From Desulfobaccales bacterium (lineage in GTDB: Bacteria > Desulfobacterota > Desulfobaccia > Desulfobaccales > 0-14-0-80-60-11), in the NCBI GenBank assembly GCA_037481655.1, contig JBBFLF010000014.1, positions 1-64,000 of the forward strand: a DNA stretch of 64,000 nucleotides, in the 5' to 3' direction. The first letter of the stretch is position 1, and each line of letters starts with the position of its first letter. Below are positions 25,251 to 61,832 of this stretch, piece by piece. A model generated the notes under the pieces. The model searched no databases. It saw only the letters and a program-made list of their open reading frames with translations, and was not told where the DNA came from. The position numbers and the translations under genes were made by a program.

Positions 25251-25337
25251 TGGTGCCTGGGGCCGGACTCGAACCGGCACGGGGAAACCCCCGAGGGATT
25301 TTAAGTCCCTTGCGTCTACCCGTTTCGCCACCCAGGC
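25251..25337 (-). tRNA. tRNA-Leu (UAA)
   Basis: The minus strand folds as a class II tRNA. The acceptor GCCTGGG pairs with CCCAGGC, the anticodon loop CTTAAAA gives anticodon UAA, a long variable arm CGGGGGTTTCCCCG follows, and the T-arm is GCCGGTTCGAGTCCGGC. The discriminator A and CCA are encoded. Bases 25296-25337 (5' half up to the anticodon loop) are duplicated at 54935-54976, so this gene is the attachment site of the island to its right. Its upstream (promoter) side now lies inside the island. Confidence 0.97.
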
Positions 25338-25339
25338 TT
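25296..25339. repeat. att site, tRNA-proximal copy of 44-bp direct repeat
   Basis: This 44-bp block runs from the anticodon loop to two bases beyond the tRNA 5' end. It is identical to 54935-54978. The bases on both sides differ between the copies, which sets the limits of identity. The strand exchange point is probably in the anticodon loop/stem, a common site for tyrosine integrases. Confidence 0.93.
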
Positions 25340-25389: not shown

Positions 25390-25410
25390 GGTGAATATAT
25401 AGGTGAATAT
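25390..25410. repeat. Putative integrase arm-type site, left end
   Basis: A 21-bp sequence beginning GGTGAATATATAGGTGAATA contains two GGTGAATAT units 12 bp apart. The identical 21 bp occurs at 54798-54818, in the same orientation, near the other end. It lies 51 bp from the repeat and touches the integrase stop codon. Paired repeats near both ends are expected of integrase arm-binding sites. Confidence 0.65.
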
Positions 25411-26507
25411 CATTCCGGTTTTGCTCCTGCAAGGGCTCTTAGCTCGTCCCTGCTCACCGTATTATACCTTTTGAAGACCATCAAGGTCTTGTGGCCGGTA
25501 GCCGCCATGATGCGGAAGTAGTCATGGCCCGCCAGGCGCCAATTGTTGATGGCCGTGTGGCGCAGATCATGAAAGGTGAAGTCCTCAATCCCCGCCCTCC
25601 GGCAAGCAGCCTCGAACGCCTCCCTTATGGACTTGATTTCCCTCCCCTCCTTGGTGAATACCTGGGCGTGGGGCAACCCTCGCGGCATAGCCCGTAACAT
25701 CTCCACCAGCTCCCGATTCAATGGGACCAGCCGTCCCTCATTGGTCTTGGTGTCCTCCGGCCGTAGCCTGATGAAACCATCCCGCAAATCCACCTGGCCC
25801 CAAGTCAGTCCCAGGATCTCCCCCCGCCGCATGCCCGTGTGATAGGCAAGCTTGATAATGGGCTTCAGGTACCCCGGGCAGGCCGCTAACAGCCGGGCAT
25901 ATTCCTCCGGCGTAAGCACCCGGTCTCGCTCATTGTTTTCCTTCAGCAGCCTCACCCCTTGGCAAGGGTTGCGCTCCGCCTTGCCGTTGCGCACCGCCTT
26001 GGAGAAGATGGTTTTCAGGCAGGCCACTTCCCGGTTGACCGTGGCCGGAGTCGTGAGGGTGTACGAGGTGCGCCCGGAGGGTTCCGACAGACGCTTTTGC
26101 CGGTAGGCCTCCACTAGGGCAGGGGTGATGTCCTTCAAATACCTCTCCCCGAAAAATGGGGAAAGGTTCTTTAAGCTCCGGCGATCACGGTCGTAACTCC
26201 TTTTGGCCTTCACCTCCGGCAGGTCCAGATACCAAGCCGCCAGCTCAGAGAACCGCGTCACCGCGTCGGGACTTTTCCGGATATGACGCCCCTCCACCTT
26301 GGCGGAGAGCACCTCCCGCAACCGTTGTTCCGCTGCGGCCTTGTTCGGCCCGATGCGCTCCCGGCGAAGATGCTTTTCATGGTCGTAATATTCGATCCAC
26401 CAGGCCCGGCCGGAGAATTTGGTCAAGGCCAAGCCGCATTTTTTACAGACCTTCTCTTTCTGACCGTTCCGCCGCTTGCAATTTGGGCATTCAATCAGCA
26501 GTCCCAT
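25410..26507 (-). CDS. int: Tyrosine recombinase (phage-type integrase)
   Basis: This 365-residue integrase inserts and excises the island. The N-terminus has a zinc ribbon (C7, C10, C21, C24), followed by an arm-binding-like region (YYDHEKHLRRERIG), a SAM-like core-binding domain (about 85-190) and the catalytic domain. The catalytic set is visible: R in TGMRRGEI, H and R in FHDLRHT, H in GHKTLM and Y in FKRYNTVS. The gene points toward the tRNA, as is usual for tRNA-targeting islands. It overlaps by 17 bp the small HTH gene upstream. The N-terminal zinc ribbon is a less common addition. Confidence 0.96.
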   Translation of the reverse strand: MGLLIECPNCKRRNGQKEKVCKKCGLALTKFSGRAWWIEYYDHEKHLRRERIGPNKAAAEQRLREVLSAKVEGRHIRKSPDAVTRFSELAAWYLDLPEVKAKRSYDRDRRSLKNLSPFFGERYLKDITPALVEAYRQKRLSEPSGRTSYTLTTPATVNREVACLKTIFSKAVRNGKAERNPCQGVRLLKENNERDRVLTPEEYARLLAACPGYLKPIIKLAYHTGMRRGEILGLTWGQVDLRDGFIRLRPEDTKTNEGRLVPLNRELVEMLRAMPRGLPHAQVFTKEGREIKSIREAFEAACRRAGIEDFTFHDLRHTAINNWRLAGHDYFRIMAATGHKTLMVFKRYNTVSRDELRALAGAKPE

Positions 26508-31734: not shown

Positions 31735-32526
31735 ATGAAATATAAACATAATAATTATACAACACGACTACAAAAATGTGGAGCGCTATTAGCTGATATG
31801 CGTCTTCTTGTTCGTCATTGGAGCGATAAACTTAATTATGATAAGCAAATTCATGATTTTATCATTGAGAACATTTTAGGAAAAAAAACTAGGTCTCGAA
31901 CAATTGACATATTACAAAGAGCTTTCTTCCAAAGATTTATAAAAGGGAATCCTCCCGAGTCGTGGAAAATTTTGCGACCATTAGAAGACCGTGATGTAAG
32001 TATAGATATCGTAAGTCCTATTTATTTCTGGATAACAAGTAGGTCTGAAAATTTAATATACGATTTTGTTACAGAGTTTCTTTATCATCGAATTAAAAGC
32101 CCCGATTTTTTGATTAGGACAGATGAAACTATACAGTGGCTAAGAAAGCAGCTGGCTGATAGGGGACAAATTTGGTCTGAAGCCGTCACCCTTCGGGTAG
32201 CCCGAGGTCTTTTGGCCGCTCTCCGTGATTTTGGAATTCTTCAGGGAAAATTAATAAAAAAAATCACTCCAATTTATTTGCCTTGTGAATCTTTTGCATA
32301 TTTAGCTTTTGCTTTATTTTCTTTAAGAAACACGGGCAAGCGTCTTGTCATCCATCCCGATTGGCGACTTTTTTTCCTAAGCTCTTCAGGAGTCGAACAT
32401 CTTTTTCTTGAGGCGCACCAAAATGGTTTCCTTCGGTATGCCGCAGCTGGGGAGATTCACTGCATAGAATTCCCGACGCAATCATTTGAGGGAATGGCCG
32501 ATGTCATCCTTGGCAGAAGAGTTTAA
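31735..32526 (+). CDS. brxA: BREX protein BrxA (DUF1819)
   Basis: This 263-residue protein matches BrxA/DUF1819 in size, position and the N-terminal signature YTTRLQKCGALLADMRLLVRHW. BrxA is a small DNA-binding, winged-helix type component needed for BREX defence; its precise role is not settled. The sequence is AT-rich relative to the host. The 3' end overlaps the brxB start by 26 bp, and the order brxA-brxB-brxC matches type 1 BREX. The ATG lacks a clear ribosome-binding site. A few in-frame alternatives exist, but the YTTRL signature close to the N-terminus supports this start. Confidence 0.88.
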   Translation: MKYKHNNYTTRLQKCGALLADMRLLVRHWSDKLNYDKQIHDFIIENILGKKTRSRTIDILQRAFFQRFIKGNPPESWKILRPLEDRDVSIDIVSPIYFWITSRSENLIYDFVTEFLYHRIKSPDFLIRTDETIQWLRKQLADRGQIWSEAVTLRVARGLLAALRDFGILQGKLIKKITPIYLPCESFAYLAFALFSLRNTGKRLVIHPDWRLFFLSSSGVEHLFLEAHQNGFLRYAAAGEIHCIEFPTQSFEGMADVILGRRV

Positions 32527-33100
32527 CGTCCTCGAGAATGATCTCATAAGCCAGCCCATGCGAATCAGCGCTTATCATGATCTTCCCTTTGCCATATTCC
32601 GCTATGACCCTAAAGATGAATTTAAGTGTCGCAAGCATATCAGGCTCCTATCCCTTTCTCTTGAAGCTAAACTTAATAAGAAAGTGACTTTAATATCCTT
32701 AGGGAAAATCCTCTGGAAGATTGTCGACGAGACTGAAGGCATGGATGCAATTATCAATACTGAAAAACAATTAGGTTTTACACGTGCCCAACAGACAGTA
32801 AATAGCCTTTTATTAGATCAGGATTTCCTCCCCTTAACTGATATTCTGGAATATCGCCTAAATAAATTAAATCCTGCCATTGATATCGTTTTTTTAGTGA
32901 GAGTCGGGGGCATTTCCCCAGCCATATATCGATGCTCTGCTTTATTAGATCAATTGCATGGCCGGGTTTTAGTGCCCATCATCCTTTTTTATCCAGGTTC
33001 CATCGAAGGCCAGACTTCACTTCGCTTTATGAACCTGCCTAATCGGAATAATGTGGGCTCTTACAATTACCGGGTAAAGATTTATGGAGGTAAATCATGA
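32501..33100 (+). CDS. brxB: BREX protein BrxB (DUF1788)
   Basis: This 199-residue protein has the DUF1788 features: a central VTLISLGKILWKIV strand-helix and the strand AIDIVFLVRVGGISPAIYRC followed by RVLVPIILFYPG near the C-terminus. BrxB is required for type 1 BREX, but its biochemistry is unclear; interaction with PglZ has been suggested. I use ATG 32501 (MSSLAEEFNV) because GAGGGA is spaced well before it; an upstream ATG at 32486 adds five residues. The 3' end overlaps brxC by four bases (ATGA). Confidence 0.9.
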   Translation: MSSLAEEFNVLENDLISQPMRISAYHDLPFAIFRYDPKDEFKCRKHIRLLSLSLEAKLNKKVTLISLGKILWKIVDETEGMDAIINTEKQLGFTRAQQTVNSLLLDQDFLPLTDILEYRLNKLNPAIDIVFLVRVGGISPAIYRCSALLDQLHGRVLVPIILFYPGSIEGQTSLRFMNLPNRNNVGSYNYRVKIYGGKS

Positions 33101-36100
33101 CAATACGGGAACTCTTTGCAAAACCGATTGATCGCAAAATAGAAGAAGTTATCAAGGTTGAACAACATAATGAAGAAACTGTTTTAAATGAATTAAAAGA
33201 ATATATTGTTACTCATTCAATCAAAGAACATTTTATTCATATTTTTGATGAGATTATTGAAGGTCATCTAAGCCCCAGGGAAGGCATCGGTATTTGGGTT
33301 TCTGGGTTCTTTGGTTCAGGAAAATCATCTTTTGCCAAAATATTAGGGTATACAACCGCAGCTATACCTGTCTACCAAAAGCCTGCCAGCGAAATATTTA
33401 AAGAACATGTCAAAGATGAAAAAATTAGCGGGCGGTTGGATGTTATCACCAGAAGCATACCAATGGACGCAGTCATCTTTGATTTGTCCATGGACCGCGG
33501 TGTGCGAACCGCCTCAGAACGCATTACTGAAATCATGTATAAGGCCCTTTTAAGAAAACTGGATTATGCCGAAGATTTTGATTTGGCGGAACTAGAGATT
33601 ACCCTCGAACAAGATGGCTTATTAGAGACCTTCGTTAACCGCTTTGAGGAAATACACGGTAAGTCATGGAAGACCAGGCGCAAGCTGGGCTTGGCTATCA
33701 ATGAAGCCAGCGTTGTTTTACATCAATTAGACCCAAAGACTTATCCACAAGCAGATTCTTATGCCCGCTCTATAGGCACAGGTAGAGCCGACATTACCGC
33801 CAATAAATTGGCGGAGAGGGCCTTCGAATTGGCAGAGCGCAGGCGCCCTGGCAAGGCCCTCATTTTTATTATCGACGAAGTCGGGCAATATGTCTCCCGC
33901 AGTGTCGAAAAAATGTTGGACCTCCAAGGTTTGGTGCAGGCATTTGGCATGGAAGGGAAAAATCGGGTGCAACAGAGGAAAGCCGTCTCTCCTTTCTGGA
34001 TCGTTGTTACCTCTCAGGAGAAACTTAATGAGATTGTTGACGCCCTGGATTCCAAGAGAATCGAACTGGCCAGATTACAAGACCGCTTCCGTATTACCAT
34101 TGATATAAAACAATCAGATATTCCTGAAATTACTGGTGAACGCATTTTAAAGAAGAACCCTATTGGTTACCAAAAACTGTCCGAACTTTTTGAGGCCAAC
34201 CAGGGGCGGCTTAATACTTTCTGCAAACTGGAGCGCACTAGCCGGAAAACCTCAATCGATAAGGATGAATTCATCAGACTCTACCCCTACCTGCCTTATC
34301 AAATTGATCTCTGCATTGACATAGTAGCTGGGTTGCGACTCAAGAGGGGAGCATATCGTCATATCGGAGGTAGCAACCGCACCATCATCAAGCAGGCCCA
34401 GGAGATGATGATAAATCCCCGCACTATGTTGGCTGATGCCCCCATCGGCACGCTGGTCACTTTAGATAAAGTTTACGAACTCTTATACCTGGGGAATCTT
34501 CTACCAACTGAAACCACCCGGGAAGTTGACGAAGTGCCTAAACTCCTCCCTGGCAATGATATGGCATTGAAAGTAGCCAAAGCCATCGCCTTGCTCGAGA
34601 CAGTCAAAGACCTTCCTAAAACCGTGCATAACCTGGCAGTAGTGCTTCATCCCTCGGTGACCTCTGACTCCGTCAAATCAGAAGTGGAAAATGCAATAAA
34701 GGCTTTGGAAAAGGCCCAGGTTATTCGCGACTCTGAGGAAGGTTATAAGTTGCTTACTGTTCAGGAAAAAAATTGGGATACCAAAAGAAGAGGATTGGAA
34801 CCCAAGCCTGCGGACCGTAAGCGCCTTTTGAAAGAAATTGTAAAGGAAATTTTCAGCGATCCCAAGATCCGAACCTATAGGTATAAAAACCTCAAATTAT
34901 TTAAACTGTCTCTTTCGGTGGAAGGCGACATTGTAGATGCCGAAGGTCAAGTTCCCCTCCAAATATTGATAGCGGAGGAACCGGAAAACCTGGACGTTCG
35001 GATAAACGAAGGGCGGGAGGCCAGCATCGAAAAGACTGGTGAAATTTATTGGATAATCACTATTGGCGAGGATATCCATGAAAATATAACGGAACTCTTT
35101 AGATCGAGCGAAATGATCGGAGAGTATGAACGCCTTGCTGCCCAAGGAAAACTTACTCCCGAAGAAATATCTTGTTTAGTGGAGGAAAAAAATCGTCGGG
35201 AACGTTATCAGCGAGAGCTACGCACAGCATTGAGTCAGGCCTTGCAATCCGGGAGCGGGTTTTTCCGTGGAGTTCAACGGGATGGCTCATCCCTAGGCCA
35301 ATCCATCTCGGAAGTCTTCGGTCAGCTGATGGATTGGACTATACCCGCTCTCTACCCCAAGTTGGAAATGGGGGTTCGCCATCTAAAGGGAGATGAGGCG
35401 GAAAAGTTCCTCACAGCCGCCAACCTGAATGCTCTTCCACCCGTCTTTTACGATGGGAATCAGGGATTGAACCTGGTAACTAAAGAGGGTGCCAAGTTTG
35501 TCCCCAATCTCTCTGCCGAGATCTGCAAGGAAGTGCTTGCCTATTTAGTCCGAGAACATAAATATGGCAACAAGATAACCGGCAAGACGCTAGAAACTCA
35601 TTTTCAAGGACCCGGCTATGGCTGGGACTTGGATGTGATCCAATTGGTTATGGCAGTACTCCTCCGGGGAGGTGCGGTGGAGGTAACCTACCAAGGACGT
35701 AGATATAGCAACTACTTAGACCATTCGGCTCGGTTACCCTTCACCACAAAACCCGCCTTTCGTTCTGCCTCTTTTGCCCCCCGGGAGCCCCTTGATCTTC
35801 GAACCTTGGCCGAGGCCGCTCGGCAGTACGAAGAAATCACCGGCAAGGAAGTAGATGTGGAAGAAGGTGCCATAGCCCAGGCCTTCAAAAAACTAGCCGC
35901 AGAAGACCGGGAGCAATTATTGCCCCTGGTAGCTCGCATGCATGCCTTAAAACTGCCAGGTCTGGAATTCATGGAGACCTACCTCCAGAATGTTGAAGGC
36001 ATCCTGGAGATGCCCGCCGACACCTGCGTAAAGACCTTGGCCGCCGAGGGCAAAAGTTACCGGGAAGCCCGTTGCCGGAGCGGGCGCTTGGCCGAGGCTA

Positions 36101-36750
36101 CCTCCGAAAAGAATCTTGAAATTATTAAGAATGCCCGTGAGCTCCAGATCATGTTCACCCGCTCGCCTGGGTTATTGGATAAGCTCCAAACTGATGGGAA
36201 TATTAAATTAAAATTCCAGGAACTCGTTGACATCCTTAATTCTGAGACCTTTTATGAATCCTTAGAAGCTTTGCGTCTGGCTTCGGCCTATATTACCAAG
36301 GCTTACGGCGATCTTTACCGGGAAACTCATGTACGTCGTGCTGAGGTATATGGCCAAGCCTTAGAAAGTGTCAAAGGTATGCCGGAATGGGCGGCTATCT
36401 CGGCAGACCCCTCCATCAGCGAGACAGAGCGCCAGGCTGTGCTCTTACCCCTGACTCAACGCGCAGAGCATGACCTGGATTTCCCCGAGGGAGCTGAGAC
36501 TTGCGGAGCCTGTGGAGCTACCATCTCCCAGATGGAGACCGACATCAGCGTCGTGGAGGCTATCAAGGACGGCGTCGTTAAACGGGTTTTAGAATTGTTC
36601 GCTCCGGAAGAGAAAATCGAGCGGGTTCGGGTCTCCACTTTGTTTTCCGGGAAGCTGGAAACTCTAAATGACGTGAACACGGTTATCGAACAATTAAGAG
36701 ACTACCTTGAAAAACTGGTCTCCCAGGGCGTCAAGGTGCTATTGGAGTAA
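33097..36750 (+). CDS. brxC: BREX P-loop ATPase BrxC
   Basis: This 1217-residue protein matches BrxC/PglY. It starts TIRELFAKPIDRKIEEVI, has a Walker A G70-F-F-G-S-G-K-S77, a Walker B-like ALIFIIDEVGQYV near residue 265, and a long C-terminal region with a CGAC pair near residue 1150. BrxC is an AAA+-like ATPase thought to act with PglX and PglZ on DNA. The length matches the family. GC content rises from the AT-rich brxA toward the 3' end of this gene. The frame is intact. Confidence 0.95.
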   Translation: MTIRELFAKPIDRKIEEVIKVEQHNEETVLNELKEYIVTHSIKEHFIHIFDEIIEGHLSPREGIGIWVSGFFGSGKSSFAKILGYTTAAIPVYQKPASEIFKEHVKDEKISGRLDVITRSIPMDAVIFDLSMDRGVRTASERITEIMYKALLRKLDYAEDFDLAELEITLEQDGLLETFVNRFEEIHGKSWKTRRKLGLAINEASVVLHQLDPKTYPQADSYARSIGTGRADITANKLAERAFELAERRRPGKALIFIIDEVGQYVSRSVEKMLDLQGLVQAFGMEGKNRVQQRKAVSPFWIVVTSQEKLNEIVDALDSKRIELARLQDRFRITIDIKQSDIPEITGERILKKNPIGYQKLSELFEANQGRLNTFCKLERTSRKTSIDKDEFIRLYPYLPYQIDLCIDIVAGLRLKRGAYRHIGGSNRTIIKQAQEMMINPRTMLADAPIGTLVTLDKVYELLYLGNLLPTETTREVDEVPKLLPGNDMALKVAKAIALLETVKDLPKTVHNLAVVLHPSVTSDSVKSEVENAIKALEKAQVIRDSEEGYKLLTVQEKNWDTKRRGLEPKPADRKRLLKEIVKEIFSDPKIRTYRYKNLKLFKLSLSVEGDIVDAEGQVPLQILIAEEPENLDVRINEGREASIEKTGEIYWIITIGEDIHENITELFRSSEMIGEYERLAAQGKLTPEEISCLVEEKNRRERYQRELRTALSQALQSGSGFFRGVQRDGSSLGQSISEVFGQLMDWTIPALYPKLEMGVRHLKGDEAEKFLTAANLNALPPVFYDGNQGLNLVTKEGAKFVPNLSAEICKEVLAYLVREHKYGNKITGKTLETHFQGPGYGWDLDVIQLVMAVLLRGGAVEVTYQGRRYSNYLDHSARLPFTTKPAFRSASFAPREPLDLRTLAEAARQYEEITGKEVDVEEGAIAQAFKKLAAEDREQLLPLVARMHALKLPGLEFMETYLQNVEGILEMPADTCVKTLAAEGKSYREARCRSGRLAEATSEKNLEIIKNARELQIMFTRSPGLLDKLQTDGNIKLKFQELVDILNSETFYESLEALRLASAYITKAYGDLYRETHVRRAEVYGQALESVKGMPEWAAISADPSISETERQAVLLPLTQRAEHDLDFPEGAETCGACGATISQMETDISVVEAIKDGVVKRVLELFAPEEKIERVRVSTLFSGKLETLNDVNTVIEQLRDYLEKLVSQGVKVLLE

Positions 36751-36753
36751 GCC

Positions 36754-37583
36754 ATGCACGCCCTTACCCTTTTCAACCAGAATTTTGCGGTGGCCGAGAG
36801 CCTCTTGGAGCTCTATCATCTATTCCATGGACTGCAGAGGAAGGACTTGCATGAGGATCTGCGGCTGGCCATCTGCTCTTTTTGGGGTGCCCCCGAGAAT
36901 ACCGCCATCCGTCCGCACGTGAACGACCGGGTGCTGCTTTTGGCCAGGGCTGTCACTGCCGTCCCGGAATCACTTACCCTGGAAGGTGCCTTGACTTTCT
37001 CTTGCGGCAGACGGTAGTAGTGGCCTGTACCGCCCTGGAGGCCTTCTTTTGGGATGTGCTGCGGGAAAATGTTCTCACCGTGGTCAAGGCCAGGCGGACC
37101 GGCGCGGATGAATCACTGCGCAACCTGACCTTTACCCTCGGCGACTACATTTCCATTCAGCAATATGACGATCCGGATCTGAGGCTCAAGCAGATCATCC
37201 TGAAAAATTTCGAGCGAGGCACACTCTATGATGTCAATTCCATCGATAAAGTAGTCCAGACCCTGACCGTGAGAAATTTTTGGGAACAGATTGAAAAAAA
37301 CACCAAGACTCCCGCTGGCGAATCGCGCCGCTACATCGAGGACCTTATTTGGCGCCGGAATCAAATCGCTCACCGCGCCGACCGGCCTGACGAAGGTGAG
37401 GAAGCCGATCCTTTAGGGCTCCGCGCCATTTCTTTTGCCTGGACCAATCAGCGGGTGCAGACGTCCAGGACCCTGGTGACCGCCAGTGCCAACCTGTTTC
37501 GCCGGGTCATCAAACGCCTGGAAGACGATATCCGGGTGGCGGAAGAGCAGGCCGAGGCCCGGCGGCTGGCCAAGTTGGGCTGA
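36754..37583 (+). pseudogene. HEPN-domain gene with one-base frameshift, inside the BREX operon
   Basis: Two frames read as one protein. Frame 1 (36754-37017) ends SLTLEGALTFSCGRR-stop. The -1 frame continues LLRQTVVVACTALEAFFWDV and runs to 37583. Restoring one T in the TTT at 36996-36998 gives a continuous product of about 276 residues. The C-terminal half has helices and R-N-Q-I-A-H (in DLIWRRNQIAHRADRP), which fits the RX4-6H motif of HEPN ribonucleases. HEPN proteins are often RNases in abortive infection and toxin systems. The gene lies between brxC and pglX, three bases after the brxC stop, with GGAG seven bases before the ATG. It may be dead, shifted in translation, or a sequencing error at a homopolymer. 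Confidence 0.75.
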
Positions 37584-37644
37584 GTTTAGCATCATCGCCT
37601 CCATGCAACTTTAGGCACGCTTAAGGACTTAGAAGGAAATATCA

Positions 37645-40600
37645 ATGCGGGCGGAAACCATCAGCAAGGTGCATGATTTCACCCTGGAAGCCAGGGCGCT
37701 GCTGCAAAAAGAGGTGGAAGAGCAACTGGAGGGCATATACGGCTTGCTGCCCAACGGCCGCTGGGAGCCGGCGGACCGATACCCCGCGCTCCAGCAGATA
37801 GAGGAGGCGAAGGTTACCCGGAGCCGGCTGGAGCACTTTCTCCGGGATGAGCAGGCCGCAGGGGTGCAACCCGCCGACGCCCGGGACAAGCTGGTGCGGG
37901 AAGCTGCCTTCACCTGGCTTAACCGTCTGGTGGCCTTCAAGATGATGGAGGCCCGGGGGCTGATCCGGCAGAGCGTATCTAAAGGCCCTCAGTCCAATAT
38001 GTTCAAATTCTGGCTGACGGAGCCGGGGAACGAGACCCATTACGAAAAGTATGAAAAAGGGGATTTGCCCCAGAACCCTCGGGGGGAAGGCCCACGGCAG
38101 GAGGCCTACCGCCATTTTCTCCTCTGGCAGTGCGGCCAATTGGCCCGGGAGATCCGGGTCCTTTTTGATCCCGACGACTTGGCCAGCCGCCTCTGCCCCC
38201 GCCCCCGGGCCCTCGCCCAGCTCATTGAATGGATGAATGCCCCGGACCTGGAGGAGGCCTGGGCCCCGGGCAATGAAGAGACCATCGGATGGGTTTATCA
38301 ATATTTCCATGAAAAGGAGAAAAAGGAGGTTTTTGAGCGGTTATACCGGGAGAAAAAGAAAATACGCAAAGAAGATATTCCTGCGGCCACGGAACTGTTT
38401 ACGCCACGGTGGATCGTCACCTGGCTGGTGCATAACAGCCTGGGCCGCTATTGGCTGCAGATGCATCCTGACAGCACCCTGGCTGATCGCCTTGAGTATC
38501 TGGTCCCCTTAGCGGGCGATGTACCCCCGGTTCCATTGAAGAAAGTCCGTGAAATCAAAATGCTGGACCCAGCCTGCGGCACCATGCATTTCGGGCTAGT
38601 AGCCTTTGACCTGTTTGCGGAGATGTACCGGGAGGAACTGGCCAAGGCAGGAACCCCCGGGTGGCCGGCTGAGCCCTCCGTGTCCCGGGAAGAGGAAATC
38701 CCTGCCGCCATTATTGGCCATAATCTTTATGGGTTGGATATAGACTTGCGTGCTGTGCAGCTTGCGGCCCTGGCCCTGTATCTCAAAGCCAAATCCCTCA
38801 ACAGGGATGCCCAGATCAGGGAATCCCACCTGGCCTGCGCCTCGGTGCTCCCCTTTGACAAGGCGAAATTCTCTCATTTTCTGGAAGACCTGAGAGCAAA
38901 GAATGCCATTTACGCCCGCATTTTTGAGGGCATGTGGGAACATTTGCGGGACCTGGAGCAGGCGGGGAGTTTGAAACGGCTGGAGGTCCGGCTGCGCGGT
39001 CTGATTGCCGAGGAAAGAAAGAAGCTGGGGAACCAGCTGCCCCTGCTTTTGGGAGTGTCCCCCCAAGAATGGGAGGCCAACGGTGGCCGGCTGGAATTCT
39101 GGGACGCCGTGGAGAAACAGCTCATAGGGGTTCTGCATGATTTTTATCAGGCGCAAAAAAACCAAGGGCAGGACGAATCCCTGTTTACCCTTGAGACCCA
39201 AAAAGGCTTCCAGGTCTTGGATATCATGCGGCGGCGCTATGATCTGGTGGCCACTAATCCCCCCTATATGTCCCGGCGGAACATGAACGAGTGCCTGGCC
39301 GCCTTTTTGGCCAGGGAGTATCCTTATAGCAAAGGTGATCTCTACGCGGCCTTTATTGAACGCTGTGCCGAATTGTTACAGGAGCAAGGGCGGCTGGGCA
39401 TGATCACCCAGCAATCCTTCATGTTTATCTCTTCCTATGAAAAGATGCGGGGAGAATTGCTGAGCCAGCACGCCATCGAAACCATGTGCCATGTGGGGCC
39501 GCGGGCCTTTGAAACCATTTCCGGCGAAAAAGTCAATACCACCCTTTTCATCCTCAGACGGGAGCCCAGGAGCGAACAACGCCAGGCGGCGGTGGGCACC
39601 TATTTCCGGCTGGTGAAGGAACCGGATGGCGAGAGCAAGCGCCGGCGCTTTGAGGTGGCGTTGGCAAAAGTCAAGGCGGGGGAGGACGACCCCCTGGTCT
39701 ATCGCTATCGCCAGAGCGATTTCCCTGCCATTCCGGGAAGCCCTTGGGTTTATTGGATTAATAATAGTTTAAGAAGCTTGTTTGAAAACTTGCCTAAGTT
39801 ACAAGACTTGGCCCCCCCTCGGCAAGGATTAGCAACATCAGATAACTTTCGTTTCCTTAGGTATTGGTGGGAAACAGGGATATCAAACATAGCATTTGAT
39901 TGTCAAGACAGTAACGATGCTATAAATAGCAAAAAGAAATGGTTTCCACATATTAAGGGTGGAGGATTTAATCGATGGTATGGCAACTTAGAATATGTGG
40001 TTAATTGGTTACATGATGGCAGAGAGTTAAAATCTATTGTACCAGCATCTGTAATAAGAAACCCAGATTGCTACTTCTTGGAAGGGTTGACATACTCAAG
40101 GGTAGGGTCTGCAACACTTAATACAAGATTATCACCTCAAGGATTTATTTTTGACTCGGGCGCAGTATCAATTTTTAGATGCGACACCTTCTTGTTTTTA
40201 GCTATCATGAATTCAAAGATTGCAAATTATTTTGCAAGATTGATAAATCCAACTATCAATTTTCAGGTGGGGGATATAAAAAGAATTCCAATATGTTTAA
40301 ATAAGAGTGAGAATCTAAAGGAATATGTCAAAGAAGCAATCTTATTAGCGAAAAGAAAAACTCAGCAGGAAGAGAATACTTATGAATTTATATGTCCGCC
40401 TGATTGGTTAAAGGGGATTGAAGAAAGGGCCACTCTTTACAAACTCGAGGTTGAGGTCCAGGGGAAAATTGATCAGGAGGTTTATCGACTTTACGAAATC
40501 AGTGAAGCTGACCGTGAAGCCATTGAAGACGAATTAGCTGAGGCCAAGATTGCCGAAGAAGAAACAGATGAGGGAGAAAATGAAAGCGAAACGGCCTCAC

Positions 40601-41475
40601 CAGAAGAGACGACAGAAGAAGCCCCTCTCACCCAAGAAGACTTAGCCCGCCAATGGCTCAGCTATGCCGTGGGCATCGTGCTGGGGCGCTTTGCCCCGGG
40701 GGTGGAGGGCGCCTTGGGCCGGGGCAATTTTGCCCCGGAGGTGGCGGCCCAGTTGCGGGCCCTGGCGTCTCCGGAGGGCATTTTGGTCATGGATGAAGGC
40801 CACCCTGACGACCTGACGGCCCGGGTCCTTAAGGCCCTGACCCTCATGGTGGGGGAGGAGGAAGTGGCCCCCCTGGTGCAGGCCGCCACAGGCAAAGGCG
40901 GCCCCCCTGAAGAACTCCTGCGCCAGTATCTGGAGCGGGAGTTTTTCAAGCGCCACATCCAGCAGTACCGCAAGCGGCCGGTGTACTGGTTCTTGCAATC
41001 GCCCCGGAAGAAATATGGCCTCTGGCTCTTCCACGAAAAACTGACCGCCGACACCCTCCTGCGCCTGCGGTCCCACTACGTGGAGCCCAAGATCAATCTC
41101 TTGCAAAGCCGCCTGAAGGAACTCCAGGGCCAACGGGACCGAGCCGAAGGCCGGGAGCGGCGGCGTTTACAAAAGAAAATCGAAGAAATCCAGGACCTTC
41201 TGGAGGATGTGCGCCAGTTCAACAAGCACCTCACCTTCATCAGTGAAGTGCGGGGCTATCGCCCCCACCTGGACGACGGCGTGCTCCTGAACATGGCCCC
41301 CCTCTGGGAGCTCATCCCCTCCTGGCAGGCTGAGCCCAAGAAGGCCTGGCAGGAACTGGAGGCGGGCAAGTACGACTGGGCCTATCAGGCCATGGACCAC
41401 TGGCCGGAGCGGGTCAGGGAAAAGTGCAAGACCAATAAGTCTTACGCCATTGCGCACGGCCTGGACTTTGAGTAA
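37645..41475 (+). CDS. pglX: BREX adenine-specific DNA methyltransferase PglX
   Basis: This 1276-residue protein is the BREX methyltransferase that marks host DNA by N6-adenine methylation at a non-palindromic site. The SAM-binding motif D308-P-A-C-G and the catalytic N538-P-P-Y541 are intact. C-terminal coiled-coil helices follow near residues 1150-1190. Residues about 704-930, where the target-recognition region is expected, are encoded by AT-rich DNA (40201-40260: 16 of 60 G/C) while flanks are GC-rich (39001-39060: 34 of 60; 40681-40740: 45 of 60). An acidic low-complexity linker (EETDEGENESETASPEET) follows. The frame is intact, so the gene is probably functional with a replaced specificity segment. 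Confidence 0.96.
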   Translation: MRAETISKVHDFTLEARALLQKEVEEQLEGIYGLLPNGRWEPADRYPALQQIEEAKVTRSRLEHFLRDEQAAGVQPADARDKLVREAAFTWLNRLVAFKMMEARGLIRQSVSKGPQSNMFKFWLTEPGNETHYEKYEKGDLPQNPRGEGPRQEAYRHFLLWQCGQLAREIRVLFDPDDLASRLCPRPRALAQLIEWMNAPDLEEAWAPGNEETIGWVYQYFHEKEKKEVFERLYREKKKIRKEDIPAATELFTPRWIVTWLVHNSLGRYWLQMHPDSTLADRLEYLVPLAGDVPPVPLKKVREIKMLDPACGTMHFGLVAFDLFAEMYREELAKAGTPGWPAEPSVSREEEIPAAIIGHNLYGLDIDLRAVQLAALALYLKAKSLNRDAQIRESHLACASVLPFDKAKFSHFLEDLRAKNAIYARIFEGMWEHLRDLEQAGSLKRLEVRLRGLIAEERKKLGNQLPLLLGVSPQEWEANGGRLEFWDAVEKQLIGVLHDFYQAQKNQGQDESLFTLETQKGFQVLDIMRRRYDLVATNPPYMSRRNMNECLAAFLAREYPYSKGDLYAAFIERCAELLQEQGRLGMITQQSFMFISSYEKMRGELLSQHAIETMCHVGPRAFETISGEKVNTTLFILRREPRSEQRQAAVGTYFRLVKEPDGESKRRRFEVALAKVKAGEDDPLVYRYRQSDFPAIPGSPWVYWINNSLRSLFENLPKLQDLAPPRQGLATSDNFRFLRYWWETGISNIAFDCQDSNDAINSKKKWFPHIKGGGFNRWYGNLEYVVNWLHDGRELKSIVPASVIRNPDCYFLEGLTYSRVGSATLNTRLSPQGFIFDSGAVSIFRCDTFLFLAIMNSKIANYFARLINPTINFQVGDIKRIPICLNKSENLKEYVKEAILLAKRKTQQEENTYEFICPPDWLKGIEERATLYKLEVEVQGKIDQEVYRLYEISEADREAIEDELAEAKIAEEETDEGENESETASPEETTEEAPLTQEDLARQWLSYAVGIVLGRFAPGVEGALGRGNFAPEVAAQLRALASPEGILVMDEGHPDDLTARVLKALTLMVGEEEVAPLVQAATGKGGPPEELLRQYLEREFFKRHIQQYRKRPVYWFLQSPRKKYGLWLFHEKLTADTLLRLRSHYVEPKINLLQSRLKELQGQRDRAEGRERRRLQKKIEEIQDLLEDVRQFNKHLTFISEVRGYRPHLDDGVLLNMAPLWELIPSWQAEPKKAWQELEAGKYDWAYQAMDHWPERVREKCKTNKSYAIAHGLDFE

Positions 41476-41481
41476 AGGGAT

Positions 41482-44079
41482 ATGGGCAAAGTTGTAGAGC
41501 ATCTCCTCGCCCTGATCCAAAAGCAGGTGGATGAGCACGGCATCGTGGTCTGGTATGACCCTGGGGGGGTCTATGCCGAGGTGGCAAAGGAGCTGACCCT
41601 CCCTGACACTGCGGTGCTCCACTTTCAGGACAGCTTCTTTCGCCTGCGCCGGGAGATCGAACCCTTCCTGGAATTCGTGGATGACGAGGGCCGCATGCGG
41701 CCTGACAGTCACATCCCACCCCGCCTGGTGGTCTATGTGCCCTTGGCTCAGGCCGACACGGAATACGCCCTAGTGGAAGTGGAAAGCGCCGGGGTGGTCA
41801 TGGCCCCTGGGGCTACGCCCTGGCAACGCAATACGCGTCTTAGAGTCATCGCCGAGCACGTCTTCAAAAAGATTGCCCCGGAAAGTGCCGCGGACATCGC
41901 CCGCCAAGTGGAGGAAGGCCGCCTGAACCTCCGAGACCTGGACCAACTGTCCAGCGAAGTTGAACAAATAAGCACCGGCACTTTGAAGCTCATTTTCGGC
42001 ACCGCCTCCCCTCAGGATGTGCTCCTGATGTTTGTTGCCACTCCGCAATATGATGAAGAACTGGAGAGGCGACAAGCCTTGCCGGAGTTGGCCAAGGTTA
42101 TAAAAAGGGAGTTGGGGATCGAGGTGGAGGAGCAGGCCTCTCCGGCCATGGCCCGCCATGCGGTGCGGCGGACACTCTTGTTGACGGACTTTCTGGCCCC
42201 TCTGGCCTTGGCGGAGCACCCTGCTGTTTTCTCCCAGGTTCCCTTGCCTCAGGAGGAGCAACATTGCAGGAACGCCTGCCAACTCTGTCATGTCTGGCGC
42301 CAGCGCCTGGATTTTTTGGAAGCCTACCTGGCGGCCGCCCGCAACGTGGAGCAGGAGTTGGGGCTGGCGGCGTTGGACCTTCCCTGGGAAAACTTGGCCG
42401 CCGGCGAGACTTTTCCGGTGCTGGAAACCAAGCTCCTGGCCCAGGCGGAATCCCAAATTCTGGAGGGAAATCCCTTAAACGCGCTACATCTGGCCGAAAG
42501 GCGGAAAAACAGCTTCTGGGCCCGGCAGGAACCGTCCCTGCAACTGCGCTGGACCCTGGTGGAAAACAGTGCCCGAGTTATGATTTTGGGAGAGGCCATC
42601 AGGACCGAACTATCCAAGGTGAAAAAGGCCCCGGAAGCTCTATTTCGCTTATACACCCGGGAGACGGACCCCTGGTGCCAGCTGGACCGGTTGTATCGCC
42701 ATTTGGAGCGGCAATATGCTAGCTTCGATCTGGAGCACCACCAGGACCCCGATCTGTTGGAAAAGGTTGTCGTACAGGTCCGGCAGCATTACAGCCTGAC
42801 CGTAACGCAATGCACCGAGGCCCTGACCCAAGCCTTTGAAAAAGCTGGATTTAAGGTTTCCGGTTTTTTATCCCAAAGAAATATTTACCAGCAACAAGTC
42901 TTTCCTCGCCTCTTGGATAGGGAAAAAACGGCGTATGTCTTGGTAGACGCGCTTCGCTATGAAATGGGCCAGGAACTGGCGGAAGGACTACAGGAAGAAT
43001 TCGAGGTGACTCTGACGCCGGCCATCGCCCAATTGCCCACAGTGACGCCGGTGGGGATGGCTGCGCTAATGCCGGAAGCAGAAAAAGGCCTGGAGATAGT
43101 GGAGGTTGCTGGCGGCAATGTGGCGATAACGGTGGGGGGCGCGGTGCTGAAAGATCGAGCCGCCCGAGTCAAATATTTGCAAGAAAAGGTCTCGAGAAAA
43201 ATTGCGGTTTTAAAACTAAGGGACCTGCTTAAACCATCAAAGAAGCATCGACAGGAGATCAAAGAAGCAGACCTAATCCTGGTGACCTCTCAGGAAATTG
43301 ACCGCTGGGGGGAGGAGACGGAAGACGAAAGCGAAGCCCGCCTTTACATGGACGAGGTTTTGGATAAGCTTCGGCGCGGAATCCGCCGGTTAGCCTCAAT
43401 GGGAGTCCCCAACCTCGTGATCACGGCAGATCATGGGCATCTGTTTGGGGAAGCATTTGAAGGTGGGGCGGAGATGGACCCACCAGGTGGTAAGACTATC
43501 GCTCTTCATAACAGGGTCTGGATCGGCCAGGGGGGTAAAGCTGGGGATGGTTATGTAAGGGTTCTGGCTCATCATCTCGCAATGGGCGGCGATTTGGAAC
43601 TGGCTTTCCCCAAGGGTTTGGCAGTGTTCAAGACCAGGGGGGTCACGGGGGCATATTGCCATGGCGGTATTTCCTTTCAGGAAATGGTCATTCCCGTAAT
43701 TTCTTTGCGAGCTAAAGAACTGAGGCCCTATGTCCCCAAGACCACCAAGGTCTTGTTGGAAATGGATAAGACCAAGGTTACCACGCGGTTTTTCTCTGTA
43801 AAAGCCACTTATGGCCTGACAGGGCTGATGGGTGCTGAAGAGATCAGGATAAACCTCTCAGTTAGGGCTAACCGGAAGGAGGTGGGTTTTGCCGTCATGG
43901 CAGCCTATGGCTTTGAAGAGGGGACCAGAGAAATCGTGCTGCGACGAGATAAACCAAATGCCATCACCATTATGATAACCGAAGAGAACTTGACTAGCAT
44001 CTCCGTGCATGCCTTAGATGCCATCTCTCAGGTGGAACTGGCCCGCCTGGAAAATATTCCGGTGGCCATTTACATCTGA
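41482..44079 (+). CDS. pglZ: BREX alkaline phosphatase-like protein PglZ
   Basis: This 865-residue protein has the PglZ domain, an alkaline-phosphatase-like fold, in its central to C-terminal part. D489 lies in VLVDALRYEMG and D650-H651 in ITADHGH, the expected metal-binding positions. PglZ is essential in BREX, and nuclease or phosphodiesterase activity has been reported for some members. The gene starts six bases after the pglX stop and has AAAGGGATATG as ribosome-binding region. Composition is host-like through the first half and more mixed at the 3' end. The frame is intact and the length normal. Confidence 0.95.
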   Translation: MGKVVEHLLALIQKQVDEHGIVVWYDPGGVYAEVAKELTLPDTAVLHFQDSFFRLRREIEPFLEFVDDEGRMRPDSHIPPRLVVYVPLAQADTEYALVEVESAGVVMAPGATPWQRNTRLRVIAEHVFKKIAPESAADIARQVEEGRLNLRDLDQLSSEVEQISTGTLKLIFGTASPQDVLLMFVATPQYDEELERRQALPELAKVIKRELGIEVEEQASPAMARHAVRRTLLLTDFLAPLALAEHPAVFSQVPLPQEEQHCRNACQLCHVWRQRLDFLEAYLAAARNVEQELGLAALDLPWENLAAGETFPVLETKLLAQAESQILEGNPLNALHLAERRKNSFWARQEPSLQLRWTLVENSARVMILGEAIRTELSKVKKAPEALFRLYTRETDPWCQLDRLYRHLERQYASFDLEHHQDPDLLEKVVVQVRQHYSLTVTQCTEALTQAFEKAGFKVSGFLSQRNIYQQQVFPRLLDREKTAYVLVDALRYEMGQELAEGLQEEFEVTLTPAIAQLPTVTPVGMAALMPEAEKGLEIVEVAGGNVAITVGGAVLKDRAARVKYLQEKVSRKIAVLKLRDLLKPSKKHRQEIKEADLILVTSQEIDRWGEETEDESEARLYMDEVLDKLRRGIRRLASMGVPNLVITADHGHLFGEAFEGGAEMDPPGGKTIALHNRVWIGQGGKAGDGYVRVLAHHLAMGGDLELAFPKGLAVFKTRGVTGAYCHGGISFQEMVIPVISLRAKELRPYVPKTTKVLLEMDKTKVTTRFFSVKATYGLTGLMGAEEIRINLSVRANRKEVGFAVMAAYGFEEGTREIVLRRDKPNAITIMITEENLTSISVHALDAISQVELARLENIPVAIYI

Positions 44080-44111
44080 GGGTGATTTATTGAAGGGGAA
44101 AAGTTTGACTT

Positions 44112-46139
44112 ATGCCTGAACTTGATCGCAAAGCCACTTCAGTGTTTGCCGGGAAGGTAGTACGCAAAGATTTGGTCCGTAAAGTAAAAGTAGGTGCCAA
44201 TGTGCCGGTTTTTGTGCTGGAGTATCTCTTGGGCAAATACTGCGCCACTGATGATCCTCTGGCCATTGAAGCGGGCTTAAGGGTGGTCAACTCTACCTTG
44301 GCGGAAAATTTTGTCCGCGCTGATGAGGCAAATAAAGCTCAATCCTTTGTCCGGGAGAAAGGCCGACATACCCTCATTGATAAGATAAAGGTACGATATT
44401 TATCAGAAGATGATAAATATTGGGCTGAGTTTTTGAACTTCGGACATAAATATGTACACATTCCAGAGAAATATATACGTGACTATGAGAGGTTGCTAAT
44501 GGGGGGAATATGGGCCCAGGTAAACCTGCGCCATGAGTATGATGAGGAGGTTAAAGGGAAAAGGAGCCCATTTTGGATCGATGACTTGAAGCCTATTCAA
44601 ATCGCCACCTTTGACCTGGATGAGTATCGCCATGGTCGCCTCCAATTCACCACAGATGAATGGCTTGATCTTTTAGTTCGGAGCATAGGTTTAGAGCCGG
44701 CACATTTCAATCGCAGACTCAAGCTTTTGTTTTTAGTAAGACTTATTCCCCTTTGTGAAGAAAGATATAATTTAATAGAACTTGGCCCCCGGGGAACTGG
44801 AAAATCATATGCCTATCAAGAACTCTCCCCTTATGTGATCCTTCTTACCGGACCCACCACTGTGGCCAACCTCTTTTACAATATTGCTACCGGCAAAATG
44901 GGCCTTGTAGGTTTGTGGGATGCGGTTGCCTTTGATGAAGTGGCCGATCTACAGAAAATGCCCAAAGAGGTTATAACCACCCTGAAAACTTATTGTGAAT
45001 CAGGAGTTTTTGCCAGGGGAAAAGAGGCCCTCTCGGGAACCGCCTCTATCGCTTTTTTTGGTAATACCAACCAACCCATTGAGGTGATGACCCGTTATTC
45101 ACACCTATTTACCCCCATGCCTGAGATCATTCGGGAGGATATGGCATTTTATGATCGCCTTCACTTTTATCTGCCAGGTTGGGAGGTTCCAAAAATGCGT
45201 ATGGAGTTTTTCACTGGTCATTATGGATTTGTAGTAGATTACCTGGCTGAGGCCTTGAGGGAATTGCGCAAGCACAACTTTACCGAATTGTTGGATCGGC
45301 ATTTCTCTATGGGTTTGCATCTGAACGCTCGGGATGTCAAAGCGGTGCGGAAGACGGTGTCCGGTCTATTGAAGCTTATCTATCCCCACGGCGAGGTGCC
45401 GAAATATGAGTTGGCGGAGCTGTTGGAATTAGCCATGGAAGGGCGCCGGCGGGTGAAAGAGCAATTAAAAAAAATGGGGTCCTTTGAATTCCACCAGACC
45501 TCATTCTCATATATTGATCACGAGACCCGGGAAGAGCGCTTTGTAGGAGTACCGGAGGAAGGCGGGCGGAATTTGATTTCCACTGATCCATTGGCACCAG
45601 GCTCTGTGTATATTGCTTCGGTTGACGATCAAGGCAAAGTGGGACTCTACCGCTTGGAAGTTGGCTGTTCAGCCGGCACCGGTAAACTTAAAGTTGCAGG
45701 AGGACTGGACAGCACCATGAAGGAATCCATTCAGAGAGCGTTTGCATATCTCCAAAGTCATAAAGTTAGCATGGGGATTGCCCAGGCCATTGATATGACT
45801 GATTTCCACGTCGAGGCTATAGACCTGTTGGCCAACAAGGTTTCATGTGAAGCAGGCATCGGGTTACTGGTAGCAATTTATTCATCGATAAAAAAGCACA
45901 GCGTTCTGCCAGCCCTCCTTATTCTTGGTGATCTTAGTATCCAAGGAAACATTAAACCAGTCCGCTCATTGGCGGAACCGCTCCAGATTGGGATGGACAA
46001 CGGCGCCCGTCGTGCTCTAATACCAATCGAGAATAAACGCCATTTCCTTGATGTACCTTCCGATATTATCGAAAAAGTAGACCCAATATTTTATAGTGAC
46101 CCACTGACGGCAGCCATTAAAGCTTTAGGGGTGACCTAA
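44112..46139 (+). CDS. brxL: BREX AAA+ protein BrxL with Lon-like C-terminus
   Basis: This 675-residue protein has an AAA+ domain with Walker A G225-P-R-G-T-G-K-S232 and Walker B VAFDEVAD, and a Lon protease-like C-terminal domain (from about 480). In that domain the Lon motif G-P-S-A-G reads S-C-E-A-G (E580 in place of the catalytic Ser) and the G-G-L-K motif reads R-S-L-A (A621 in place of the catalytic Lys). It therefore appears unable to work as a Lon-type Ser-Lys protease. BrxL marks type 1 BREX and is needed for phage exclusion in studied systems. A ribosome-binding GAAGGGGAAAAG lies upstream. It ends the operon. Confidence 0.95.
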   Translation: MPELDRKATSVFAGKVVRKDLVRKVKVGANVPVFVLEYLLGKYCATDDPLAIEAGLRVVNSTLAENFVRADEANKAQSFVREKGRHTLIDKIKVRYLSEDDKYWAEFLNFGHKYVHIPEKYIRDYERLLMGGIWAQVNLRHEYDEEVKGKRSPFWIDDLKPIQIATFDLDEYRHGRLQFTTDEWLDLLVRSIGLEPAHFNRRLKLLFLVRLIPLCEERYNLIELGPRGTGKSYAYQELSPYVILLTGPTTVANLFYNIATGKMGLVGLWDAVAFDEVADLQKMPKEVITTLKTYCESGVFARGKEALSGTASIAFFGNTNQPIEVMTRYSHLFTPMPEIIREDMAFYDRLHFYLPGWEVPKMRMEFFTGHYGFVVDYLAEALRELRKHNFTELLDRHFSMGLHLNARDVKAVRKTVSGLLKLIYPHGEVPKYELAELLELAMEGRRRVKEQLKKMGSFEFHQTSFSYIDHETREERFVGVPEEGGRNLISTDPLAPGSVYIASVDDQGKVGLYRLEVGCSAGTGKLKVAGGLDSTMKESIQRAFAYLQSHKVSMGIAQAIDMTDFHVEAIDLLANKVSCEAGIGLLVAIYSSIKKHSVLPALLILGDLSIQGNIKPVRSLAEPLQIGMDNGARRALIPIENKRHFLDVPSDIIEKVDPIFYSDPLTAAIKALGVT

Positions 46140-46287
46140 TTGCGCAATTAGTTTGCTTTGAGGGGAGAACTTATTAAAAAATTAGTGATTGACTCAGAAT
46201 ATGAATGACGTCCGATTGCTTAATTAAAAGGTTCAGGAAATTCATGGCTTGTTGTAACATAATCTTTTAATAGATGCTCATTGATTA

Positions 46288-46994
46288 CTATGCATCATTT
46301 TGACAAGCTGGAGCAGGAGCACGGCAATGGACCACGTAGCCACTCCCCTTGATCTCCGGCGGCTGGCGAACCTTGAAGGAGCCCCGGGCAATCTCGCCGA
46401 TCTCGGGGACCAGTGGATGTTTCTCCCAATAGTCGGGAACGGGACTGAAGCGCTCACTTGAGAGCTCCTCTTTGCTGGCGCCAAAAACCACTCCCACCAT
46501 GAGGGCCCCCAGATAGCGGCACGCGTCCACGCATATCAACAGGGCATGGGTGGTGCGGGAACTCTCCCCGGACAGGCGGATGGCCTCTTCAGGGGTGCGG
46601 GCGAAAAACAGGGGCACCGGCGCCAAGCGCATGAGGCTGCCATTGCCGGCGGAGCGGGGGTGGGTGGCGCCGGCCATAGGCTCCCCGGTACGCTCAAAGG
46701 CGAGGAGCGCGGCTCTGACAGTGGTGCCGATGTCAAAGCACCTCCCGGTGTTGCTCAGATACCCTTCCCGATACCACCTGAGATAACGGGCCATCTGATC
46801 CGCGGGGTCAAAAACCCTTAGGCAATCAGGCTCCCCGCCAGGCACAGGGCCATGGAGGTATCATCGGTCCACTCCTCTGGCTTAAGGCCAAAGGTGCCTC
46901 CGCCCACCATGTCCTCAATATGTGTGAAAGTCCCGGGAGGACGGAATTCCAGGGTGGTGCCCAGGGCGTTCCCCACCGCCAGCCCCAGCATCAT
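46288..46994 (-). pseudogene. ADP-ribosylglycohydrolase (DraG-like), truncated and frameshifted
   Basis: The minus strand reads [20 protein letters not shown] through [20 protein letters not shown] and stops at TAA near 46819. The homologous sequence continues in another frame as FDPADQMARYLRWYREGYLS and SAGNGSLMRLAPVPLFFA. The N-terminus lacks the usual lead-in before GLAVGDALG, and the C-terminus ends in unrelated sequence soon after GSGYVVHC. Family enzymes remove ADP-ribose from proteins using two Mg ions, and the WTDDTSMAL motif that binds them is still readable. With a frameshift and loss at both ends it is a pseudogene. Confidence 0.85.
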
Positions 46995-47023
46995 TATCTA
47001 GTAAAATTTAATTACTTCCCATC

Positions 47024-54934: not shown

Positions 54935-54978
54935 GGATTTTAAGTCCCTTGCGTCTACCCGTTTCGCCACCCAGGCTT
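54935..54978. repeat. att site, distal copy: 5' half of tRNA-Leu(UAA)
   Basis: The 44 bp are identical to 25296-25339 and correspond to the tRNA 5' half, from its first base (54976) to the anticodon loop. To the right lies the host sequence that presumably carried the original tRNA promoter. To the left is island sequence, so this half-tRNA cannot form a functional tRNA. Confidence 0.93.
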
Positions 54979-61259: not shown

Positions 61260-61832
61260 CTAAAACCCCAGCCAGCGGATGGGGCGGTCTTTGCGGGGGG
61301 GGACGGGTGGTTCTTTGGCGGAGTAGCCGATGGGGGTGATGGCCAGGAGGTGCTGGTCGGGTTTCCCCAGGTAGTCCAGCAGTTCCTGGGCCACGTAGTT
61401 GGGGCCGGTCATCCAGCAGGTGCCCAGGCCCTCGGCGTGGGCGGCCAGCAGCAGGTTCTGCATCAGGGCGGCCCCGGACTGGATGTTGGCCTCCATCATG
61501 CCCGGGTCCGGGCTCTTGTAGACCGTGACCACGATGACCACCGGCGCGCCCCCCAGGTTCTGGAAGAACTTGATGACCAGCTCCTGGCCTTTTTCGGGGA
61601 TCTGGGCGGCCTGCATCAGTTGTCGCATATGGGCGATGCAGTGGGTCACCCGCTCCACGAATTCATCCCGGAAGCGGCCGGCCAGGACGTCGATCTCCCA
61701 GGGCTGGGCGTTGGTGCCGGAGGGCGCCCAGAGGGCCGCCTGGATGACCCGCTCCAGCACCTCCCGGGGGGGCATGTCCGGTTTATAGAAGCGATGGCTG
61801 CGCCGGTTCATGATGGCTTCATACAGGTCCAT
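61260..61832 (-). CDS. Nitroreductase-family flavoprotein
   Basis: This 190-residue protein matches FMN-dependent nitroreductases by the N-terminal [16 protein letters not shown], the FMN-binding [10 protein letters not shown], and the C-terminal [10 protein letters not shown]. These enzymes reduce nitroaromatics or quinones with NAD(P)H; the natural substrate is unknown. I start it at ATG 61832 (MDLYEAIMN), with GGGAGG upstream; ATG 61844 is possible. The start lies inside the 3' end of a DNA methyltransferase gene, overlapping by 14 bp (26 bp from the longer start). Confidence 0.88.

Follow-up and report, generated by a model that had tools for sequence, protein, structure and literature searches.

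We found that an AT-rich block within the pglX (brxX) gene of a Desulfobaccales bacterium encodes the DNA recognition module of PglX, the adenine methyltransferase of a type 1 BREX system, and that PglX genes have a reduced GC content over this same module in almost every host. The block lies in contig JBBFLF010000014.1 (assembly GCA_037481655.1), of which we analyzed positions 1 to 64,000, here called the window. In the reading that we favor and hold to be probable, the block is the specificity module of a PglX protein encoded on a tRNA-Leu island and is an exchangeable cassette of the PglX family, with a GC content below that of its chassis owing to a separate history.

The pglX gene (37645 to 41475, forward strand; PADLOC PglX model, 3.7e-226) is a single open reading frame of 1,276 amino acids without interruption, so the frame stays open across the block, as first reported. 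G+C counts per 60 nucleotides fall along the gene from 34 (39001 to 39060) to 20 (39901 to 39960) and 16 (40201 to 40260) and then rise to 45 (40681 to 40740), in exact agreement with the four counts of the original prediction. The block as first named (39755 to 40560) has 37.3% GC, and the lowest-GC single segment of the gene runs from 39748 to 40584 (GC of 0.37 inside and 0.59 outside). A change point search on GC at third codon positions (GC3) placed the block at codons 692 to 1000 (39718 to 40644; GC3 of 0.34 inside and 0.74 outside; log-likelihood ratio [LLR] of 79). Thus, the predicted location was right but the predicted extent was too short, as the GC3 segment extends beyond it by about 12 codons upstream and about 28 codons downstream; the residue range of about 704 to 930 also needs correction, since position 40560 falls in residue 972. 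In 20,000 codon shuffles of pglX, no 309-codon run fell below a GC3 of 0.53, and an observed GC3 of 0.29 compares with an amino acid-matched expectation of 0.71 (z = -13.9), so that the deficit is not explained by amino acid composition. None of 29,991 segments of 806 nucleotides from the chromosome outside the island was as AT-rich as the block (minimum, 0.557); within the island, 9.9% were, because brxA, brxB, and other parts of it are also AT-rich. The GC3 of 215-codon runs in pglX ranges from 0.31 to 0.82, the widest spread of the 29 open reading frames compared. The unusual feature is therefore the GC step within one gene and not AT-richness as such.

The identity of the block is supported by sequence and by structure prediction. 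The window's PglX has an N6-adenine methyltransferase core with an NPPY catalytic motif (N538 to Y541; 39256 to 39267), Pfam matches to Eco57I (4.2e-26) and N6_Mtase, and PDB sequence matches to 8c45, 8zek, and 9ewz (E values of 3e-135 to 7e-133). We modeled residues 500 to 1276 with AlphaFold2 (36 sequences; pLDDT of 89.7); the closest solved folds were 8c45 (Z score of 29.5) and 9ewz (Z score of 28.4), with a Foldseek E value of 2.4e-44. In the model, the recognition domain is followed by spacer helices and then by a C-terminal domain from residue 997. The target recognition domain, equivalent to residues 651 to 837 of E. coli BrxX (EcBrxX), the borders given in PMC11842806, was mapped by alignment to residues 695 to 888 (39727 to 40308), with support from the model and fold search. 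The next segment (residues 889 to 974; 40309 to 40566) has predicted helices at residues 889 to 906, 924 to 949, and 954 to 974, the last two being long spacer helices by analogy to Salmonella PglX (PMC11341690), and it runs into an acidic linker modeled with low confidence (residues 972 to 991; 40558 to 40617; pLDDT under 50). Conserved motifs mark both edges of the block: IPGSPWVYW upstream (39730 to 39756; invariant P697, P700, Y703, and W704) and the start of the C-terminal domain downstream (S1006 to R1015; 40660 to 40689; invariant S1006, G1010, G1014, and R1015). In the predicted structure, block edges 692 and 1000 coincide with the domain borders at about 695 and 997, and the GC3 segment comprises the recognition domain, the spacer helices, and the acidic linker. 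The alignment to the EcBrxX domain, the AlphaFold model, and the fold matches thus agree that the block is the DNA recognition domain, as had been proposed, and a location outside this domain in a structure model is excluded.

The Salmonella and E. coli HS PglX/BrxX proteins (8c45 and 9ewz) have the same fold over window residues 520 to 1236 and share with the window's protein the domain order, the NPPY motif, and the succession of recognition domain and spacer helices, at about 30% identity. Two of the five EcBrxX base contacts are kept in the window's protein (R751, here R805, and N823, here N872), and the other three are changed (K681 to Q727, D684 to A730, and Q784 to S838), so this PglX is expected to recognize another site of the 6-bp nonpalindromic kind that PglX enzymes methylate; as a weak guess from the two kept residues, with R805 reading the first G and N872 the A at position 4, the site is perhaps GNNAAN. 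High variability of the PglX recognition domain has already been published (PMC11842806).

The BREX system is complete in the window, with all six type 1 genes identified by PADLOC models and arranged on the forward strand in the order brxA (31735 to 32526; GC3 of 0.30), brxB (32486 to 33100; 0.42), brxC (33097 to 36750; 0.50, with merely 0.22 in codons 7 to 110), a HEPN gene, pglX, pglZ (41482 to 44079; also by Pfam; 0.65), and brxL (44112 to 46139; also by Pfam; 0.47). The HEPN (RiboL-PSP) protein gene between brxC and pglX (36882 to 37583; PF18735, 4.1e-11; GC3 of 0.66) has a counterpart with 57% identity at the equivalent site in genome G038 and may serve as a backup effector in this branch of BREX. 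The operon belongs to an island about 29.7 kb long that is flanked by exact 44-bp direct repeats, of which the left copy (25296 to 25339) lies nearly entirely within a tRNA-Leu(taa) gene and is likely an attachment site, and the right copy (54935 to 54978) marks the other end. The island's tyrosine integrase gene adjoins the left repeat (25410 to 26507, reverse strand; PF00589, 9.3e-26). Open reading frames outside the island mostly have GC3 values of 0.8 to 0.9, and those on it range from 0.30 (brxA and also the frame at 53931 to 54731) up to 0.75 (the integrase gene); the island is thus foreign in composition and uneven. A related operon, locus L020, is even in composition, unlike the widely differing BREX genes of the window. 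Outside the island, at 61819 to 62691, we also noted an AT-rich gene (GC3 of 0.46) for a type II-like DNA methyltransferase (PF01555) in GC-rich surroundings.

We compared 67 PglX genes by searching each for its best low-GC3 segment. The set includes 28 of 38 viral loci, excluding four short partial ones (L075, L077, L078, and L079), five with frame changes, and the duplicate L049; 20 of 308 matching plasmid records, hand-picked, without sight of their domain composition, for high and then low host GC; and genome hits other than those that were incomplete or broken (G213, G304, G252, G466, G474, G572, and the second G514 copy). A segment with an LLR above 10, an uncalibrated limit that was also passed by 2 of 22 brxC, pglZ, and brxL genes from eight operons, was found in 60 of the 67 PglX genes, in every case over the recognition domain. 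The seven without one are G319, G104, vL048, two Paraburkholderia genes, and those of Halorarius and L. salivarius. Both controls that passed the limit are from the window (brxC, 19.0; pglZ, 12.4), and pglX passed it in six of the eight operons, in which the mean LLR was 49.7 for pglX versus 7.0 for brxC, 5.1 for pglZ, and 6.0 for brxL. The GC3 of the domain is lower than that of the N part in all 59 measurable genes; against the C part, this holds for 56 of 58 genes. When only fourfold sites are counted (vL072 dropped here and from the regression below), GC is lower in the domain than in the N part in 66 of 66 genes and than in the C part in 64 of 66. The family means are 0.61 for the N part, 0.39 for the domain, and 0.61 for the C part. 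For the 25 of 67 genes with a GC-rich N part, mean GC3 along the gene passes from 0.77 to 0.80 down to 0.47 to 0.53 and back to 0.75 to 0.81. These measurements demonstrate that low GC over the recognition domain is a family-wide property, and a search of the literature found no title or opening abstract that reports such a near-universal deficit in PglX.

The low-GC segment starts at a median residue of 545 across the family, often directly after NPPY, and at residues 700 to 709, near the window's edge, in G038, G493, G442, and L. plantarum. In the window's pglX, the linker at residues 601 to 690 is GC-rich (GC3 of 0.76), and it is low in most relatives; the block has sharper edges than the family average, and its drop ranks 2nd of 38 GC-rich PglX genes at fourfold sites (-0.60) and 3rd of 32 such genes by GC3 (-0.39). 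The deficit is found in GC-rich and moderately AT-rich hosts and is gone in L. salivarius, which is at the AT floor and has a flat profile of about 0.19. Domain GC3 tracks that of the host with a slope of 0.56 (r = 0.71) in a regression that ignores relatedness. The two Paraburkholderia genes have no dip (GC3 of 0.80 and 0.77), and therefore protein function does not require low GC. Fast divergence was rejected as a cause of the dip, as the methyltransferase insert at residues 401 to 520, although more variable still (16% identity), has a high GC content (0.75 in GC-rich genes). With a low-GC3 segment present in 60 of the 67 genes, the dip is no proof of recent exchange; where relatives for comparison are lacking, reduced GC over a recognition domain must not be taken for a recent swap.

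Evidence for exchange came instead from identity and phylogeny. In all 174 PglX pairs whose flanks share 60% identity or more, the domain is less similar than the flanks (mean of 34% versus 69%); for example, the A. baumannii and A. indicus proteins are 96% identical in the flanks and 40% in the domain. In the 14 closest pairs, identity drops mostly at residues of about 540 to 620, after NPPY, and recovers at about 900 to 1000. Domain and flank trees (the large ones built without vL072, Halorarius, and G499) disagree for several members. In approximately unbiased (AU) tests on 22 hand-picked rows of 64, a joint domain clade was rejected for E. coli and Klebsiella, which are sisters in the flanks (P = 0.027), not clearly rejected for A. 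baumannii and A. indicus (0.082) or three viral-contig proteins (0.131), and not rejected at all for G381 and vL064 (0.621); thus, on the domain alone, coinheritance was rejected for one flank-sister group of four. As judged from these alignments and trees, recognition modules have been replaced wholesale within the family, as demonstrated in lineages other than that of the window. The module edges, from NPPY or IPGSPxxYW to the C-terminal domain, suggest natural cut points in PglX and would be useful for designing proteins with new BREX sites.

We also observed PglX genes with other arrangements. In five viral contigs (L055, L056, L058, L059, and L068), a frame change near residues 600 to 690 places the methyltransferase part in one frame and the recognition and C-terminal parts in another, resembling separate M and S subunits, with a 7-nucleotide overlap between the two matches in L056. 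The G028 gene changes frame near residue 690 (L019, about 5870 to 5890). In G572, the gene is split around residue 733 between two contig ends (L027 and L038) with a common 8-bp repeat, as expected after an insertion, and one viral contig carries two PglX-like genes in tandem (L071, 2853 to 9706).

For the window's own copy, the original prediction of a probable swap is borne out as far as domain identity and wholesale replacement in the family are concerned, but low GC does not serve as a marker of a swap in this gene. The nearest kin of the window's PglX is genome G028 for both the flanks (58%) and the domain (53%), and domain identity between the two (54% over residues 691 to 890) ranks first among 675 pairs with flanks 40 to 65% identical, the 665 of these that lie outside the window's clade having a mean of 34%. 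An identity plot against close homologues had been suggested as a check, with uniform identity counting against a swap; against G028 it is roughly even (bins of 43 to 73%) with no drop confined to the block, at a flank identity of 58% that is too distant to settle the matter, and its lone low bin (26%) lies in the methyltransferase insert. A joint position of the window and G028 in the domain tree is acceptable (AU test, P = 0.553). The 22-row domain tree groups the window, G028, G038, G319, and L001 (support of 91, not starred); in the 64-row tree, the long-branch Azospirillum and G514a sequences intrude among these five. We found no conflict between domain and flanks for the window, since both the flank and the small domain trees give the nearest kin as G028 and the same five-member clade, and these sequence comparisons give no indication that an unrelated module was exchanged into its lineage. 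Transfer of the domain across clades was considered for L030 to L035 (domain identity of 39 to 44%, flanks of about 23 to 31%) and dropped, as the domain tree keeps the window in its own clade. Searches for closer relatives found pglX only in the window's own genome among three genomes of the genus, no other copy in 29 genomes of the order, no relative above 58% flank identity, and no second copy in the window's genome; a block-only donor search of viral contigs gave 10 pattern matches with no relative among them, and a DNA-level search of E. coli genomes gave no match.

Several explanations of the block were weighed against these data. That a single recent event replaced the recognition domain of this pglX with AT-rich donor DNA is possible, though we doubt it. 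The sharp edges at conserved motifs, the high rank of the drop, and the GC-rich linker, by which the edges are not simply those of the family, would fit such an event and may leave room for a swap with edges of its own, from IPGSPWVYW to the C-terminal domain start; against it stand the family-wide dip, the shared nearest kin of domain and flanks with a domain pair that tops all 675, and the lack of a donor in the viral-contig scan with the module alone. Replacement of the window's own module, at whatever date and from whatever source, is plausible as an extension of the demonstrated points rather than as one of them; such a replacement may, as first suggested, alter the methylated motif in a single step. 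It is rather unlikely, in our view, that there was no swap and that the module was inherited with its chassis, its low GC reflecting missing GC-biased gene conversion or selected codon choice. A link between recombination and GC is reported in bacteria, and GC-biased gene conversion has been proposed there (PMC4450053). Congruent kinship of domain and flanks in the window's clade agrees with inheritance, as do the low domain GC3 values throughout that clade (window, 0.31; G028, 0.43; G038, 0.45; G319, 0.37; L001, 0.20), the lasting deficit with which domain GC3 follows host GC3, and the vL061 and A. baumannii domains, which are 52% identical and have GC3 values of 0.56 and 0.23 beside N parts of 0.81 and 0.41. 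The absence of a dip from the two Paraburkholderia genes argues against it, as do the window's sharp edges, which it does not predict, and gene conversion is hypothetical here.

The reverse history, which we hold to be improbable, would make the block an original part of an AT-rich BREX island and the HEPN gene, pglZ, and GC-rich chassis later arrivals. The GC3 values of brxA, brxB, brxC, and brxL are closer to that of the block than to that of the chassis, but this history would need separate replacement of both flanks of the block, and the L020 operon is even (0.68 to 0.70 for brxA, brxB, brxC, and brxL and 0.66 for pglZ) and still has the dip in pglX only. We give almost no credence to ordinary amino acid composition of a DNA-binding domain, or to chance: in 57 of 66 genes, the AT enrichment of the domain extends to codon positions 1 and 2, but the signal is in third positions and fourfold sites, and the amino acid-matched expectation and the 20,000 shuffles described above refute both.

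In the favored reading, that of an exchangeable specificity cassette with its own history, the recognition domain, spacer helices, and linker are predicted to read the first bases of the BREX site and would form a cassette bounded by conserved motifs, its GC falling short of that of the chassis in nearly all hosts. The GC-rich chassis on both sides, conserved across the family, would comprise the helical N-terminal domain and methyltransferase and the C-terminal domain. Recombination would bring in new alleles of the module from other BREX islands, and these would be too divergent to recombine internally, so that they would be fitted only slowly to host composition and their GC would not be raised with that of the chassis. 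The reason that the module is always AT-rich most likely lies in this history of its own. Exchange inside the PglX family alone cannot lower the family mean GC, which leaves either steady import from AT-richer mobile DNA or a force that keeps modules AT-rich. Import from one common pool of AT-rich donors, followed by partial adjustment to host composition, was disfavored, as it would need an implausible donor GC3 of about 0.10 (bootstrap range, -0.16 to 0.21) in a regression that ignores relatedness. We consider it unlikely, though worth stating, that a standing force keeps the module AT-rich in nearly all hosts even when it is coinherited, with diversity blocking recombination and hence GC-biased conversion; were this true, a GC3 step within any gene would flag an exchangeable module, and such steps would allow GC-biased gene conversion in bacteria to be tested in nature. 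The near-universal deficit thus raises a testable question, namely, why exchanged modules stay AT-rich.

The proposed cassette can be compared with known exchange systems. In HsdS of type I restriction systems, the exchange unit is said to be a recognition domain with a helical spacer, a point mentioned in passing in PMC10273834. HsdS recognition domains resemble those of PglX in having lower GC3 than neighboring open reading frames in 18 of 23 loci, in a rough control with simple neighboring frames (26 of 30 loci taken, 3 of these skipped), but the deficit is weaker (-0.10 on average and -0.165 beside GC-rich neighbors), and the PglX module lies inside the methyltransferase chain, whereas HsdS is a specificity subunit. 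The nearest known parallel is the Rhs genes, in which a conserved GC-rich chassis carries an exchanged low-GC module; in Serratia, the core has 67.7% G+C and the A+T-rich C-terminal tips have 46.4% (PMC2935791). Rhs tips are terminal, whereas conserved domains enclose the internal PglX module on both sides, and, unlike Rhs, the window's pglX has no spare modules downstream. The region from 36000 to 47000 contains no repeats save one imperfect 18-nucleotide inverted pair, and features of a phase-variable cassette are missing at the window's pglX, which has no second copy, no such repeats, and no adjacent recombinase, the integrase gene at the island end being 11 kb away. On L. brevis (L100, 7483 to 10852) and L. 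plantarum (L101, 10388 to 13844) plasmids, pglX and pglZ are separated by a recombinase gene and a second, partial pglX in inverted orientation. An identical stretch of 30 residues at about residues 210 to 240 of these Lactobacillus proteins, upstream of the whole methyltransferase and not at the recognition domain, is a likely candidate for the exchange site. Such Lactobacillus cassettes, like those described for L. rhamnosus (PMC7513527), show that exchange of PglX specificity parts occurs in nature.
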